Below, piece by piece: positions 13,469 through 19,007 of a stretch of 64,000 bases of DNA. A program made the position numbers and the translations under genes. How positions within the stretch are numbered: the first letter of the stretch is position 1; the number at the start of each line of letters is the position of its first letter. Below the pieces are notes generated by a model. It saw only the letters and a list, made by a program, of their open reading frames with translations, was not told where the DNA came from and did no database searches. Origin of the DNA: an uncultured Deferribacterales bacterium (GTDB lineage: Bacteria; Chrysiogenota; Deferribacteres; Deferribacterales; Mucispirillaceae); the NCBI GenBank assembly GCA_947853665.1, contig CANTXF010000016.1, positions 186,001 to 250,000 on the forward strand, written 5' to 3'.

Positions 13469-14187
13469 CAGATTGTAAATCCCTTGCCGAGATATCTGTC
13501 TATAACGTCTTTATTGGAAAGTATTTCGCTGGGGCTGCCCTGGGTAAGCACCGTCCCGTCCGTTATTATATAGCCTCTGTCCGTAATCTTTAAGGTATCG
13601 CGTACGTTATGGTCCGTAATAAGAACGCCTATGCCTCTGTTTTTAAGCTCGTACACCATCCCCTGAATATCAGCCACGGATATCGGGTCTATACCGGCGA
13701 AAGGTTCGTCAAGCAGTATGAAATCAGGCTCGGTGGCAAGGCATCTGGCTATTTCCACCCGTCTGCGTTCCCCTCCGGATAACGCGTACCCGTAGTTTCC
13801 GGCAACATGCTTAAGATGAAATTCTTCTATTAACGTCTCAGCCCTGTCGTTCATAGCCGAGCGGTCTTTGTCCGTAAACTCCAAAGCGGCCATAATATTA
13901 TCGTAAACTGTCATTTTGCGGAATACGGAGGCTTCCTGTGGAAGATAGCCTATCCCGGCCTTACAGCGCTCGTGCATGGGCTTGCGGGTAATATCTTCGT
14001 CCCTCAGAAAAATATTTCCGCCGTCAGGACGCAGAAGGCCGACTATCATATAAAAAGTAGTGCTTTTGCCAGCGCCGTTAGGCCCAAGCAGGCCCACGAT
14101 CTCGCCCTTTTCAACGTTCAGAGAAACGCCGTTTACGACTGTGCGTTTACGAAAAGATTTTCTAAGGCCTTTTACTTCCAGACTCAA
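13468..14187 (-). CDS. lptB: LPS export ABC transporter ATPase LptB
   Basis: ATPase that powers extraction of LPS from the inner membrane through LptFG, 239 aa. Walker [14 protein letters not shown], signature [13 protein letters not shown] and Walker [14 protein letters not shown] are all intact. The start is TTG, supported by AAGGAG 7 bases upstream, and it overlaps lptA by 26 bases. The LptFG permeases are not in the window. Part of the run lptC-lptA-lptB-rpoN. Confidence 0.96.
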
Positions 14188-14689
14188 AAGGCTTCTCCTT
14201 ATCGTCGGGCTTGAATATTATGGTAACCCTCGTTTCCTTGCCTTTATCCACAACGATTCTGTTATCTACATAATACATTATAACCCTGTCGCCTTCAAGG
14301 AAGTTTTCTCCCTGCCACACTTTTACGCCGCCGGAAAGAACGGCCGTCTGCGAGGTCTGGTCCACTTCGGCGTTTTTGGATACGGACACGATATCCTTCG
14401 TTTTAAAGTTGACGTTTCCGTTGCATATTATCTTATCCACATCCATGCTGTTATTAAGAACTACCGTAACATTATCGGCCGTCAGGGTAAAATTATCATT
14501 CACGGCCACCACATTGCCGGAAAATACGGACTTTTTTTCGTTTCCGAAATACTTCATAGTGTCCGACTGTATTTTAACAGGCGAAGAAGCCGCTATTTTA
14601 GAAGCGTTATCCGGGGAAGCGGCCGTAAGGAAAACCGCGGCCAAAGACCCGGTCAGAATTTTCAGCAAATCTGCCGTCCGTTTTTTCAT
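14162..14689 (-). CDS. lptA: LPS transport periplasmic protein LptA
   Basis: Periplasmic beta-jellyroll bridge for LPS, 175 aa. A signal peptide occupies about residues 1-30 ([26 protein letters not shown]), followed by the OstA-like domain with repeated beta strands ([25 protein letters not shown]...). It starts 6 bases after lptC and overlaps lptB. The length is normal. Confidence 0.88.
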
Positions 14690-14695
14690 ATTAAG

Positions 14696-15280
14696 TTACC
14701 TCGCCTGCTTTTCGGGCGCCTGAGCAAAATATTCGACGCTCACGTTATCGCTGAAAAGCACATAATTATCGTTAACGTTAAAATCGGCCCTTCCGGCTTT
14801 TATATTATTTTCTCCCTGATTAAGGGTTATTCCGTTTTCCACGGCGCCTTTACCGTCTTTATAATCGTAGGTAAGCGTTCCGTCCTCCCCGGCTTTAAAC
14901 TCCATGTCGTTCATACTGCCGGTAATATTTCCGCTGGCCCGCAGCACTCTCTGAAGCTCGTACGTGCCTCTGTCTGCGTCGGCGTCAAGATTTATGTTTC
15001 TGCCGCCGTATTTTATGGAAACTTTCTCAAGGGACACGGCGCTCGATACTCTGTCTGCGAAAGCGGACTCCGAACGCAGATTCATATAACTGGAGTTATC
15101 GAAAACGTACACCATTTCTATACCGGTCATTTTAAGCCGGTTTTCCTCTATAAGCGCCGAGTAAGGTCTTTCCACCCCGGCATCCTTCATAACAACTATA
15201 CCTATAAGTATTATAAAAAAGCCTCCGAGAAAAATAACGAAGGCTTTTTTTAATTTTTTCTTCAGGTCCGGTCCGAACAA
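14696..15280 (-). CDS. lptC: LPS export protein LptC
   Basis: Bitopic protein that passes LPS from LptFGB to LptA, 194 aa. An N-terminal membrane helix (about 14-31) after a Lys-rich start is followed by an OstA/LptC-type beta-jellyroll that ends in YVLFSDNVSVEYFAQ. The likely start is TTG with AAAGG 8 bases upstream; no ATG lies in a suitable place. The call rests on fold pattern and position between kdsD and lptA, since LptC sequences are weakly conserved. Confidence 0.82.
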   Translation of the reverse strand: MFGPDLKKKLKKAFVIFLGGFFIILIGIVVMKDAGVERPYSALIEENRLKMTGIEMVYVFDNSSYMNLRSESAFADRVSSAVSLEKVSIKYGGRNINLDADADRGTYELQRVLRASGNITGSMNDMEFKAGEDGTLTYDYKDGKGAVENGITLNQGENNIKAGRADFNVNDNYVLFSDNVSVEYFAQAPEKQAR

Positions 15281-15291
15281 TATATCAACCT

Positions 15292-16263
15292 TTATACCAG
15301 GCCGGCTTTAAGCAGGTCCTGCAAATGGATTATGCCTTCCAGCTTTTTATTTTCGTCCAGAACGAAAAGAGCGGAAATACTGAACGTTTCCATTATTCTC
15401 AAGGCGCTTGCCGCAAGATCGTGATCCGCTATAACCTTAGGATTAACCGTCATAATATCCGAAGCCTTCATATTGTAAGGGTCCCCGTATTTTGACATGG
15501 CCCTGCGCAGATCTCCGTCGGTTATTATGCCCACTACGCTGCCTTCACCGTCTATGACAGCCGTGGAGCCGAAACGTTTGGAATTTATTACGGATACGGC
15601 TTCCCTCACGCCAGAGTCCTGATTTACGGCGGGAAGTTCGTTTCCCGTATGCATAAGATCCGCAACGGTAAGCAGAAGCCTTTTGCCCAAGGCGCCGGAA
15701 GGATGCAGCATGGCAAAATCTTCCTCTTTAAAACCGCGGCGCTCTATCAGCGCCACGGCCAGCGCGTCTCCCAAAGCCAGAGAAACGGTAGTGCTGGAAG
15801 TAGGAGCAAGGTTTAAGGGGCAAGCCTCTTTGACAACGGAAGCATCCAAAACATGGTCGCTCTTTCTGGCAAGGGTCGAATCCACGCTGCCCACTATCGA
15901 TATAAGACCGACTCCCAGACGCTTTATAAGCGGCAGCAGGATTTTTATTTCATCGGTCTCGCCGCTGTTGGAAATGGCGATAACAACGTCGCCTTTAACG
16001 AGCATCCCCAAATCCCCGTGAACGCCTTCCGCCGGATGCAGAAAAAAGGCCGGCGTACCTGTGCTGGCGAGAGTGGCGGCGATTTTTTTGCCTATAAGGC
16101 CGGATTTACCCATGCCCGTAACGACTACCCTGCCTTTGCAGGCCATTATCATCTCCACAGAATCGGCAAAGTCGCCGCCAATGCGGGACATAGTCCTTTC
16201 CATAGCCTCTATTTCGGTTCTGAGAGTATTTACGCCTATCTTCACCAATTCGTTTTTGTCCAT
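15292..16263 (-). CDS. kdsD: arabinose-5-phosphate isomerase KdsD
   Basis: Converts ribulose-5-phosphate to arabinose-5-phosphate, the first step to Kdo for LPS, 323 aa. A SIS domain (about 35-175, GRVVVTGMGKSGLIGKKIAATLASTGTPAFFLHPAEGVHGDLG) is followed by two CBS domains (about 205-320). The ATG at 16263 is chosen over an upstream one inside the pyrG tail because it has AGCAGG at good spacing and gives the usual N-terminus. kdsA and kdsC, often next to it, are missing here. Confidence 0.95.
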   Translation of the reverse strand: MDKNELVKIGVNTLRTEIEAMERTMSRIGGDFADSVEMIMACKGRVVVTGMGKSGLIGKKIAATLASTGTPAFFLHPAEGVHGDLGMLVKGDVVIAISNSGETDEIKILLPLIKRLGVGLISIVGSVDSTLARKSDHVLDASVVKEACPLNLAPTSSTTVSLALGDALAVALIERRGFKEEDFAMLHPSGALGKRLLLTVADLMHTGNELPAVNQDSGVREAVSVINSKRFGSTAVIDGEGSVVGIITDGDLRRAMSKYGDPYNMKASDIMTVNPKVIADHDLAASALRIMETFSISALFVLDENKKLEGIIHLQDLLKAGLV

Positions 16264-16276
16264 AATAAATAACCTG

Positions 16277-17923
16277 CTAAACTTTTTTGTCGTCGTTATC
16301 CGAAGGGGCGGAAAGCCTCTCCGTTTTATATTTATAAGCCGCCTCCACAAAACTCGTAAAAAGAGGATGCGGGTCGAAAGGCTTGGATTTAAACTCGGGA
16401 TGAAACTGGCAGCCTATAAACCACCTGTGAGATTTAAGCTCGATAATATCGGCAAAGCCGGTGTCGGGGTTTATCCCGGTTATGGAAAGGCCTGCGCCGC
16501 GCAGATCGTCGGCGTATCCGTTGTTAAGCTCAAGCCTGTGCCTGTGGCGTTCGTATATCGGCGTTCCGCCGTATACGGAAAGCGCCAGACTGCCATCCGC
16601 CAAATCGCATCTGTAAGCGCCAAGCCTCATAGTTGCGCCCATTTCGTCATTATAGTGCTCGTCATGGCGGTAATCGATCACCAGGTTGGACGAACGTTTG
16701 CACATGGTCATTTCCGCGCTTGTGGCGTCCGTCAGCTTCAAAACGTTTCTGGCGTATTCTATGACGGCGGCGTGCATGCCGAGGGATATGCCGAAAAAGG
16801 GTATATCCTTGCTGCGTGCAAAATTAACGGCAACTATCTTTCCTTCAACCCCTCTCTCGCCGAAGCCTCCCGGAATAAGGATACCGTCAGCTTCGCTGAG
16901 ATATTCGCTTGGCATGCGGTTTTCCAGCGTTTCGGCGTCGACCCATTTTATATTGACCTTAAGGCTGTTGGCAACTCCCCCGTGGCGCAGAGCCTCCGTA
17001 AGGCTTATATAAGCGTCCTTCATATTCAGGTATTTGCCTACTACGGCCACAGTAACGCTGTCTCTGGGCTGCTTTATCCGGCGCACTATCTCGTGCCACT
17101 TGGAAAGATCGAACGGGCGCTCGCTCAGCTTAAGTTTTTTAAGCACAACCCTGTCCATTCCCTCTTCGTTAAGAGCAAGGGGCACCTGGTAAATAGTGCT
17201 GGCGTCTATACAGTTTATAACGGCTTCCTTTTCCACATTGCAGAAAAGCGCAAGCTTCCTGCGTATTCCTTCGTCCAGAGGGTACTCGCTCCTGCATACG
17301 AGAACATCCGGGCTTATGCCTATTTCCTGGAGCTGTCTTACGGAATGCTGGGTAGGCTTTGTTTTAAGCTCGCCAGCCATTTTTATATAAGGAACGAGGG
17401 TAACGTGAATATAAAGTATGTCGTCCTCGTCAAAGTCGAATTTCATCTGCCTTATAGCCTCAAGAAAAGGCAGACCCTCTATATCGCCCGTAGTACCGCC
17501 TATCTCTATTATAACGATATCGTAATTTTCGGCTCCGGCGGATATGCACGCCTTTATTTCATCGGTAATATGCGGTATAACCTGAACGGTGCTTCCCAGG
17601 TATTCCCCCCTTCTTTCCCTCTCGATAACCGTATAATATATTTTACCGGAGGTAAGGTCGGAATTTTTATTCATATCCGAATTTATAAAACGCTCGTAAT
17701 GGCCAAGATCCAGATCGCCTTCTGCGCCGTCTTCCGTAACGAACACTTCTCCGTGCTGGAGAGGGCTCATAGTGCCCGGACCGTAATTGAGATAAGGGTC
17801 GAATTTCTTTATGGCGACTTTATATCCTCTGGCTTCGAGAAGAGCTCCCAGAGAAGCCGCAGTAATGCCTTTTCCCAATGACGAAAGAACTCCGCCGGTA
17901 ACAAAAATATACTTGGTGCCCAT
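16277..17923 (-). CDS. pyrG: CTP synthase with Ser replacing the glutaminase nucleophile Cys
   Basis: Makes CTP from UTP, ATP and an amino group, 548 aa. The synthase domain (about 1-265) is normal (TGGVLSSLGKGI at the P-loop, DPYLNYGPGTMSPLQHGEVFVTEDGAE). The class I amidotransferase domain (about 290-548) keeps the oxyanion strand GGFGERGVEGK and the His-Glu pair in CQFHPEF. The nucleophile motif GICLGMQ reads GISLGMH: codon TCC at 16784-16786 gives Ser380 where E. coli has Cys379, and the following Gln is His. By family knowledge the glutaminase should be lost or weak, leaving ammonia-dependent synthesis. It lies between kdsB and kdsD. Confidence 0.96.
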   Translation of the reverse strand: MGTKYIFVTGGVLSSLGKGITAASLGALLEARGYKVAIKKFDPYLNYGPGTMSPLQHGEVFVTEDGAEGDLDLGHYERFINSDMNKNSDLTSGKIYYTVIERERRGEYLGSTVQVIPHITDEIKACISAGAENYDIVIIEIGGTTGDIEGLPFLEAIRQMKFDFDEDDILYIHVTLVPYIKMAGELKTKPTQHSVRQLQEIGISPDVLVCRSEYPLDEGIRRKLALFCNVEKEAVINCIDASTIYQVPLALNEEGMDRVVLKKLKLSERPFDLSKWHEIVRRIKQPRDSVTVAVVGKYLNMKDAYISLTEALRHGGVANSLKVNIKWVDAETLENRMPSEYLSEADGILIPGGFGERGVEGKIVAVNFARSKDIPFFGISLGMHAAVIEYARNVLKLTDATSAEMTMCKRSSNLVIDYRHDEHYNDEMGATMRLGAYRCDLADGSLALSVYGGTPIYERHRHRLELNNGYADDLRGAGLSITGINPDTGFADIIELKSHRWFIGCQFHPEFKSKPFDPHPLFTSFVEAAYKYKTERLSAPSDNDDKKV

Positions 17924-17925
17924 TG

Positions 17926-18660
17926 TTAAAAAGACTCCTCCTTAAGATGGCGCCTCGCCGCTTCGAGATCTGCGGGAGTATCTACGGATACCGGATCGTA
18001 ATCCGTTTTTATCACTTTAATGCGGGTCCCGTTTTCAAGGGCCCTTAGCTGCTCAAGGTTTTCCGCCTTCTCAAGAGGCGTTCTTTCCAGGGAAGCAAAT
18101 TTAAAAAGAAAGTCCCTCCTGAAACCGTAAATCCCTATATGCCTGTATCTTATCACGCCGTCTATGCCGTCCCTGTTATAAGGTATCGGACAGCGGGAAA
18201 AATAAAGGGCGAAACCGTTTTTATCCATGGTTACCTTCACATCGGAAGGGTTTTCGGAAGAAAGCGAATCCTTAAAATGAGTACAGGCCGTTATCATCTC
18301 CAGCCCCGCGTCGGAAGCAAAGCCGTCGATAAGGGAATTTATAAGCCCGGCAGGTATGAAAGGCTCGTCCGCCTGAACGTTTATTATAATGCCGTCAGTT
18401 ATCGTTCTGGCGGCAAAAGCCACTCTGTCAGTACCGGTGGCAAGGTCAGAAGGACTCATTATAACTTTAAGACCCGATATTTTTGCGCATGCGTCGCAAA
18501 CCTTTTCATTATCGGTAACAACAACCACGTTGTCTGCGGCGGTTTCCAGACACCGTCTGGCGACAAGTGCTACCATTGGCTCTCCGCCCACGTCGGCAAG
18601 CACTTTGCCGGGAAACCTTGTGGAGCCGTATCTGGCGGGTATTATAACTGCGCTGCTCAT
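17926..18660 (-). CDS. kdsB: 3-deoxy-manno-octulosonate cytidylyltransferase KdsB
   Basis: Activates Kdo as CMP-Kdo for LPS core synthesis, 244 aa, cytoplasmic. It has the nucleotidyltransferase start SSAVIIPARYGSTRFPGKVLADVGG, the signature NVQADEPFI and the C-terminal YDPVSVDTPADLEAA. The ATG at 18660 overlaps the acpS stop as ATGA and has AGGAGG 4 bases upstream, so it is preferred to an upstream codon. CMP-Kdo formation uses the CTP made by the next gene. Confidence 0.96.
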   Translation of the reverse strand: MSSAVIIPARYGSTRFPGKVLADVGGEPMVALVARRCLETAADNVVVVTDNEKVCDACAKISGLKVIMSPSDLATGTDRVAFAARTITDGIIINVQADEPFIPAGLINSLIDGFASDAGLEMITACTHFKDSLSSENPSDVKVTMDKNGFALYFSRCPIPYNRDGIDGVIRYRHIGIYGFRRDFLFKFASLERTPLEKAENLEQLRALENGTRIKVIKTDYDPVSVDTPADLEAARRHLKEESF

Positions 18661-19007
18661 GGGGCCTCCTTTATATGGCAAACGGCTATGGCGTTATATC
18701 TGGAATGGGAAATCGAAACGGAAATATCGTCTCTTTTCACGCCTTTCAGGGCGACTTCCGGCCGGCCAGTCATATCCGGCAGTATTTCTATATCGGTAAA
18801 AGCGAGACCCGTGCCTATGCCGCAGCCCATAGCTTTAGAGACGGCCTCTTTAGCGGAAAAGCGCCCGGCCAGAAATTCGGCCTTACGCCCTCTTTCCGTA
18901 TAAACGGCCGCCTCTGCGGAAGTGAGAATCCGACCGATAAATTTATCCCCGTATTTATCCGCGGCCTTTTCAACACGCTCTATTTCGACGATATCGCAGC
19001 CTATCAT
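18657..19007 (-). CDS. acpS: holo-[acyl-carrier-protein] synthase
   Basis: Transfers 4'-phosphopantetheine from CoA to ACP, 116 aa. Metal-binding residues are in MIGCDIVEIERVEKA and GRFSAKEAVSKAMGCGIG, and the C-terminal ISHSRYNAIAVC motif is intact. It starts at TAATG shared with the pdxJ stop, the common pdxJ-acpS pairing. Confidence 0.95.
   Translation of the reverse strand: MIGCDIVEIERVEKAADKYGDKFIGRILTSAEAAVYTERGRKAEFLAGRFSAKEAVSKAMGCGIGTGLAFTDIEILPDMTGRPEVALKGVKRDDISVSISHSRYNAIAVCHIKEAP

Follow-up and report, generated by a model that had tools for sequence, protein, structure and literature searches.

A CTP synthase of the Mucispirillaceae lacking its glutaminase nucleophile: a probable ammonia-using enzyme with counterparts in other lineages

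The window, a stretch of 64,000 nucleotides from an uncultured Deferribacterales bacterium of the Mucispirillaceae (contig CANTXF010000016.1, positions 186,001 to 250,000), belongs to a genome of 2.43 Mb that is 97% complete. It carries a gene for CTP synthase (pyrG copy 1) within an LPS cluster (Table 1), and the order kdsB-pyrG was also found in Mucispirillum. The encoded protein has the make-up of a CTP synthase, with CTP_synth_N including the conserved ATP, UTP and Mg residues and with a C-terminal class I GATase domain; of the catalytic residues of a glutamine-hydrolysing enzyme, it retains the His-Glu pair and lacks the Cys. Its score against TIGR00337 (775 bits, cut-off 462.75) is well above the threshold and the NCBIfam label remains "glutamine hydrolyzing CTP synthase"; the change of nucleophile is thus invisible to the profile match.

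Table 1. Features at the pyrG copy 1 locus, with positions in the window.
Feature	Position	Strand	Basis or remark
pyrG copy 1 (kdsB-linked), CTP synthase, 548 aa, glutaminase nucleophile lost	16277..17923	(-)	TIGR00337, Pfam and alignment
Codon TCC, Ser380, column of E. coli Cys379	16784..16786	(-)	Alignment to E. coli PyrG
His384, column of E. coli Gln383	16772..16774	(-)	Alignment to E. coli PyrG
Oxyanion strand GGFGERGVEGK, intact	16838..16870	(-)	
His508-Pro-Glu510, His/Glu pair of triad, intact in window; Cys-Pro-Glu in Mucispirillum	16394..16402	(-)	
PF06418, the synthase (amidoligase) domain, residues 4-266; the catalytic and substrate residues named in the text are conserved	17126..17914	(-)	Pfam
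Gly48 replacing Asp48	17780..17782	(-)	Sole change among 72 canonical-invariant synthase positions
GATase domain PF00117, residues 301-527, full length	16343..17023	(-)	Pfam
kdsB (CMP-KDO synthetase, CTP user), directly upstream of pyrG copy 1	17926..18681	(-)	
kdsD/kpsF arabinose-5-phosphate isomerase, directly downstream of pyrG copy 1	15292..16266	(-)	
lptC-like gene and lptA, same LPS cluster	14162..15280	(-)	First without Pfam match; lptC by position and size

A sequence-only reading of this DNA had reported that the glutaminase nucleophile is changed to Ser, with a second change of Gln to His four residues on, in a protein with an otherwise intact synthase domain, oxyanion strand and His-Glu dyad. 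All of this was borne out by alignment (motif GISLGMH in the single genome of the window genus, with HPE, as part of QFHPEF, intact). Invariance was judged from 62 Cys-bearing PyrGs, which agree (at least 97%) at 72 positions of the synthase domain and 43 of the GATase domain; at these positions the window copy departs by D48G in the former and by C379S and E499D in the latter. The window copy, like the other tabulated copies, retains residues K18, K40, D70, D72, Q114, E140, D147, E149, K187, Q192, K223 and H57, and its GTP-site and tunnel residues T51, P54, H57, V60 and E68 are unchanged.

Alignment of the relatives at the motif, which the same reading had proposed as a check, showed that the Cys is absent from all kdsB-linked copies of the family, in three genera: it is replaced by Ser or Gly in 14/14 family genomes holding such a copy. 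Mucispirillum (9 genomes) carries GISMGLQ together with PAGFGERG and a change of His515 to Cys (CPE), and the third genus (4 genomes) carries GIGLGMC or GIGLGMS; no PyrG was found in one further family genome, which is 57% complete. The suggestion of a lineage-wide loss was thereby upheld, as was the view that a read error is improbable, since the Cys column holds Ser or Gly in every sister-genus genome with a kdsB-linked copy. Sequencing error was rejected on this ground and because the sister-genus genes have uninterrupted reading frames on which purifying selection acts. A general loss of glutaminases from the window genome was likewise rejected, since GuaA, CarA, the TrpG/PabA-like protein and HisH keep their Cys.

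Selection was assessed in the two sister genera (the window genus being a single genome) from medians of pairwise dN/dS with dS up to about 1. In Mucispirillum the altered copy gave 0.039 for the synthase and 0.081 for the GATase domain, against 0.040 and 0.083 for the Cys-bearing copy described below; the corresponding values in the third genus were 0.036 and 0.112, against 0.033 and 0.088. The altered copy is thus under strong purifying selection in both genera and, the ratios being low and near those of the Cys copy, the gene is kept by selection with its dead domain included. A pseudogene was rejected, the frame being open in all family members and the synthase dN/dS about 0.04. The continued constraint on the dead GATase domain fits a structural role, and a regulatory role as well.

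Other families of the order have a single, Cys-bearing PyrG, with the exception of one family (f4). In two of its genomes (G017, 95% complete, and G031) the sole PyrG found is without the nucleophile and is sister to the Mucispirillaceae copies; three others (G024, G035, G037) have a different, Cys-bearing PyrG. The PyrG of G017 and G031 reads GLGSLGLQ or GLGSMGMQ, with one extra residue ahead of the nucleophile site, and has Leu for His515. The family f4 may correspond to the insect-gut sister clade of PMC12887300. The simplest reading is a single loss of the Cys in a common ancestor followed by separate gains of Cys copies; we infer that the loss came before the Mucispirillaceae genera diverged, and probably before their family and f4 separated. 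A distant genome (G052, 1.2 Mb, 99% complete) was without any PyrG match.

A search of the window genome for a second pyrG, also proposed in the sequence-only reading, found one that bears the Cys (G000:C33), located between guaA and glmS. Both this genome and 12/13 relatives in which PyrG was found have a further PyrG, whose GICLGMQ and HPE motifs are intact, so that two PyrGs occur together in 13/14 Mucispirillaceae genomes with PyrG; in Mucispirillum the glmS neighbour was confirmed as well. The two PyrGs of the window genome are 48.5% identical. In a FastTree phylogeny the kdsB-linked copies group with the order's Cys PyrGs and are thus vertically inherited, and the second copies lie far away, which suggests gain by transfer; no donor was found. 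The grouping of guaA, pyrG copy 2 and glmS (L065:6008-11258) places three glutamine amidotransferases side by side, and the three genes were possibly gained together. Since the second pyrG has an intact Cys, the cell is not dependent on ammonia for CTP. Two type III-like glutamine synthetase matches were also found in the window genome.

A motif scan of 84,980 species returned 62 loci with a non-Cys PyrG, each one confirmed as a PyrG; as the scan motif rules out Gly and AGY Ser along with Cys, this is an undercount. Eight loci belong to Mucispirillum and 54 to others. Across nucleophile-less PyrGs outside the Mucispirillaceae, the residues Ala, Gly, Asn, Thr, Gln and Phe all occur at the site. 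Biogas-reactor MAGs account for 23 of these 54, with names fitting one study of 1,635 MAGs in total (PMC7038595), where about 1 was expected (binomial p 2e-25); the expectation assumes that every one of the 1,635 MAGs is a species representative, habitats were taken from record titles only, and the p-value makes the excess look more certain than it is, since related genomes each enter the count. The other titles include Sporosarcina, Atopostipes, Tissierella, Erysipelothrix urinaevulpis, gut Bacteroidales and methanogens. No Cys copy was detected in 40/50 non-Mucispirillum nucleophile-less genomes, the remaining 10/50 having one, whole or partial; many of the genomes are phylogenetically non-independent MAGs whose completeness is unknown, and those free of a Cys copy include the cultured Sporosarcina jiandibaonis, Atopostipes suicloacalis and Erysipelothrix urinaevulpis. 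On the tree a minimum of 7 changes of state is required, or 13 if only losses are allowed. One genome has two PyrGs and a Cys in neither (a Ser copy and a Gly copy, AVGFGMQ; L188, G070:C316). Peptococcaceae and Clostridia MAGs (L126, L129, L130) have a PyrG with GINMGME and Leu for His, which in the two genomes checked is paired with a Cys PyrG, as in the Mucispirillaceae. No description of nucleophile-less natural CTP synthases was found in the open-access literature, which is weak evidence of novelty.

Sporosarcina has a single full PyrG, and the Cys is absent from it in 61/61 genomes (30 Gly, 28 Ser, 3 Ala). With a Cys-specific pattern, a Cys PyrG was detected in 132/151 genomes of the family to which the genus belongs, and 15 of the 19 others are known Sporosarcina. 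All eight Sporosarcina genomes read (L334-L341) have Gly at the nucleophile position of CarA (GIGLGHQ or GIGMGHQ), making this a second dead glutaminase; the GuaA Cys is kept where read. S. pasteurii reportedly requires ammonia (or urea), and its glutamine synthetase and glutamate synthase activities were reported absent (PMC7775470). Nothing tying nitrogen use by CTP synthase to Sporosarcina was found in the open-access literature.

Glutamine synthetase (PF00120) was absent from 31/50 nucleophile-less genomes and from 24/40 of those without a Cys copy, counts that gaps in MAGs inflate; it was present in 29/29 controls (14 control genomes, 10 Sporosarcina relatives and 5 relatives of the window genome, both sets of relatives being Cys-bearing). 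The cultured S. jiandibaonis, A. suicloacalis and E. urinaevulpis are the safer negative cases. Three further Sporosarcina lacked the enzyme and one had fragments only; in the latter (G124, C1:1289519-1289887) three short fragments, one with an internal stop, resemble a recent pseudogene. The GuaA glutaminase domain scored over its cut-off in 7/33 genomes of a set mostly lacking glutamine synthetase, versus 14/14 controls. GuaA is reduced to about 437-442 aa, its glutaminase domain largely gone, in L314, L316 and G106 (Rikenellaceae, Erysipelothrix urinaevulpis), and in Atopostipes and relatives (L306, L307, L309) its catalytic Cys is changed to Asp (AIDYGAQ). A published survey lists PyrG and GuaA as 100% glutaminase-fused, with no exception (PMC3376133).

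Because GTP acts on glutamine hydrolysis, the GTP site should relax once that hydrolysis is lost. Residues T51, V60 and E68 have been assigned to the GTP site or the tunnel gate (PMC9138612). Among 13 nucleophile-less clades, 12 of the 47 changes at invariant synthase positions fell on these three residues, versus 3.3 expected (p about 7e-5), the expectation having been computed for the five-position GTP-site and tunnel set; in the same clades the 11 catalytic or substrate positions showed 1 change versus 7.2 expected. Mucispirillum carries V60I, and T51, V60 or E68 is altered in several other nucleophile-less clades. The window copy keeps all three residues, along with the catalytic His and Glu, and this argument therefore rests on other lineages.

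From these sequence comparisons, the altered copy most likely makes CTP with ammonia and keeps its dead glutaminase domain as a structural element. On this reading the Cys nucleophile has been lost and the synthase domain would go on with free ammonia, which the E. coli enzyme accepts from outside (PMC9138612), the dead GATase domain being retained as a structural part. The loss would precede the split of the Mucispirillaceae genera, probably also that from f4, and the family now also holds the distantly related Cys PyrG beside guaA and glmS, able to use glutamine. The same conversion appears to have taken place at least seven times on the tree, often with glutamine synthetase and other glutaminases gone. 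We assign a probability of about 0.75 to this reading as a whole, that is, ammonia use, a structural GATase domain and recurrent conversion. Of the earlier proposal that the enzyme depends on free ammonia, the part concerning the altered copy is thus supported, and an extension to the organism is not supported, given the second PyrG and the Cys kept by the other glutaminases of the genome. The suggested ammonia-rich niche finds support in a link with such habitats that appears across other lineages and that we infer to be adaptive. Ammonia may still be plentiful for the Mucispirillaceae, as M. schaedleri reduces nitrate to ammonium (PMC5285517).

That Ser380 acts as a weak nucleophile and sustains slow glutamine hydrolysis, the other option in the sequence-only reading, would be compatible with His508, Glu510 and the oxyanion strand of the window copy; it is disfavoured, and we consider it very unlikely, given Gly in one sister genus, Ser with the catalytic His lost in Mucispirillum, the variety of residues in other lineages and the variation between Ser, Gly and Ala among Sporosarcina relatives. 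Still harder to sustain is a decaying, functionless paralogue replaced by the acquired Cys copy: that copy is indeed present and GATase catalytic residues are eroded, but the reading is largely refuted by a synthase dN/dS equal to that of the Cys copy, and the frame is open throughout the family with its place in the kdsB operon kept.

CTP synthases assemble as tetramers and filaments, and the altered copy might mainly be a regulatory or structural partner of the Cys PyrG that tunes activity or filaments and makes little CTP. The regular co-residence of both PyrGs in the Mucispirillaceae and the conservation of the dead domain speak for such a role; it is nevertheless improbable, if less so than the two preceding alternatives, as the synthase domain retains its catalytic residues, no Cys partner was found in G017 or in the 40 genomes elsewhere, and the two copies of the window genome share less than half of their residues. 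For the preferred ammonia-using enzyme, the value of such a copy in the window genome is not obvious, given the Cys PyrG and the glutamine synthetase matches. Candidate reasons for the retention of both copies are a division of labour by nitrogen supply, mixed assemblies, or a dedicated CTP source next to kdsB that serves CMP-KDO synthesis.

More broadly, the balance of evidence tilts towards a recurrent natural switch of CTP synthase from glutamine to ammonia only, within a wider retreat from glutamine in ammonia-rich niches (loss of glutamine synthetase, dead or deleted GuaA and CarA GATases). This would include all sampled Sporosarcina and might be one reason for the ammonium requirement of S. 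pasteurii, of which the nucleophile-less PyrG offers a testable partial explanation; the Mucispirillaceae would have lost the use of glutamine and later gained a glutamine-using copy. CTP synthase is held to be universally glutamine-dependent and GTP-activated, and annotation labels the nucleophile-less proteins as "glutamine hydrolyzing". Should ammonia-only forms prove widespread in nature where ammonia is plentiful, annotations and metabolic models would have to be corrected, the glutamine analogues DON and acivicin should not hit these enzymes via the usual Cys, and the PyrG nucleophile would be a simple sequence marker of ammonia-based nitrogen metabolism.

The altered protein shares family, two-domain architecture, length and synthase active site with glutamine-hydrolysing PyrG (TIGR00337; E. 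coli PyrG, PDB 1S1M/2AD5), from which it differs in the replacement of Cys379 by Ser in the window and by Gly in a sister genus, Mucispirillum also being without the catalytic His. Type N NadE, a single-domain ammonia-dependent NAD synthetase (PMC3376133), is likewise an amidoligase working on free ammonia and sets a precedent for both forms in one family; it has no glutaminase domain and its ammonia form is judged ancestral, whereas the altered PyrG retains a dead version of that domain and its ammonia form would be derived. A third comparison is with glutaminase-dead laboratory variants of the E. coli enzyme such as G352P, which lost glutamine-dependent activity and remained almost fully active with NH4Cl (PMC9138612); those variants were engineered, whereas the altered PyrG is natural and fixed in its lineage.
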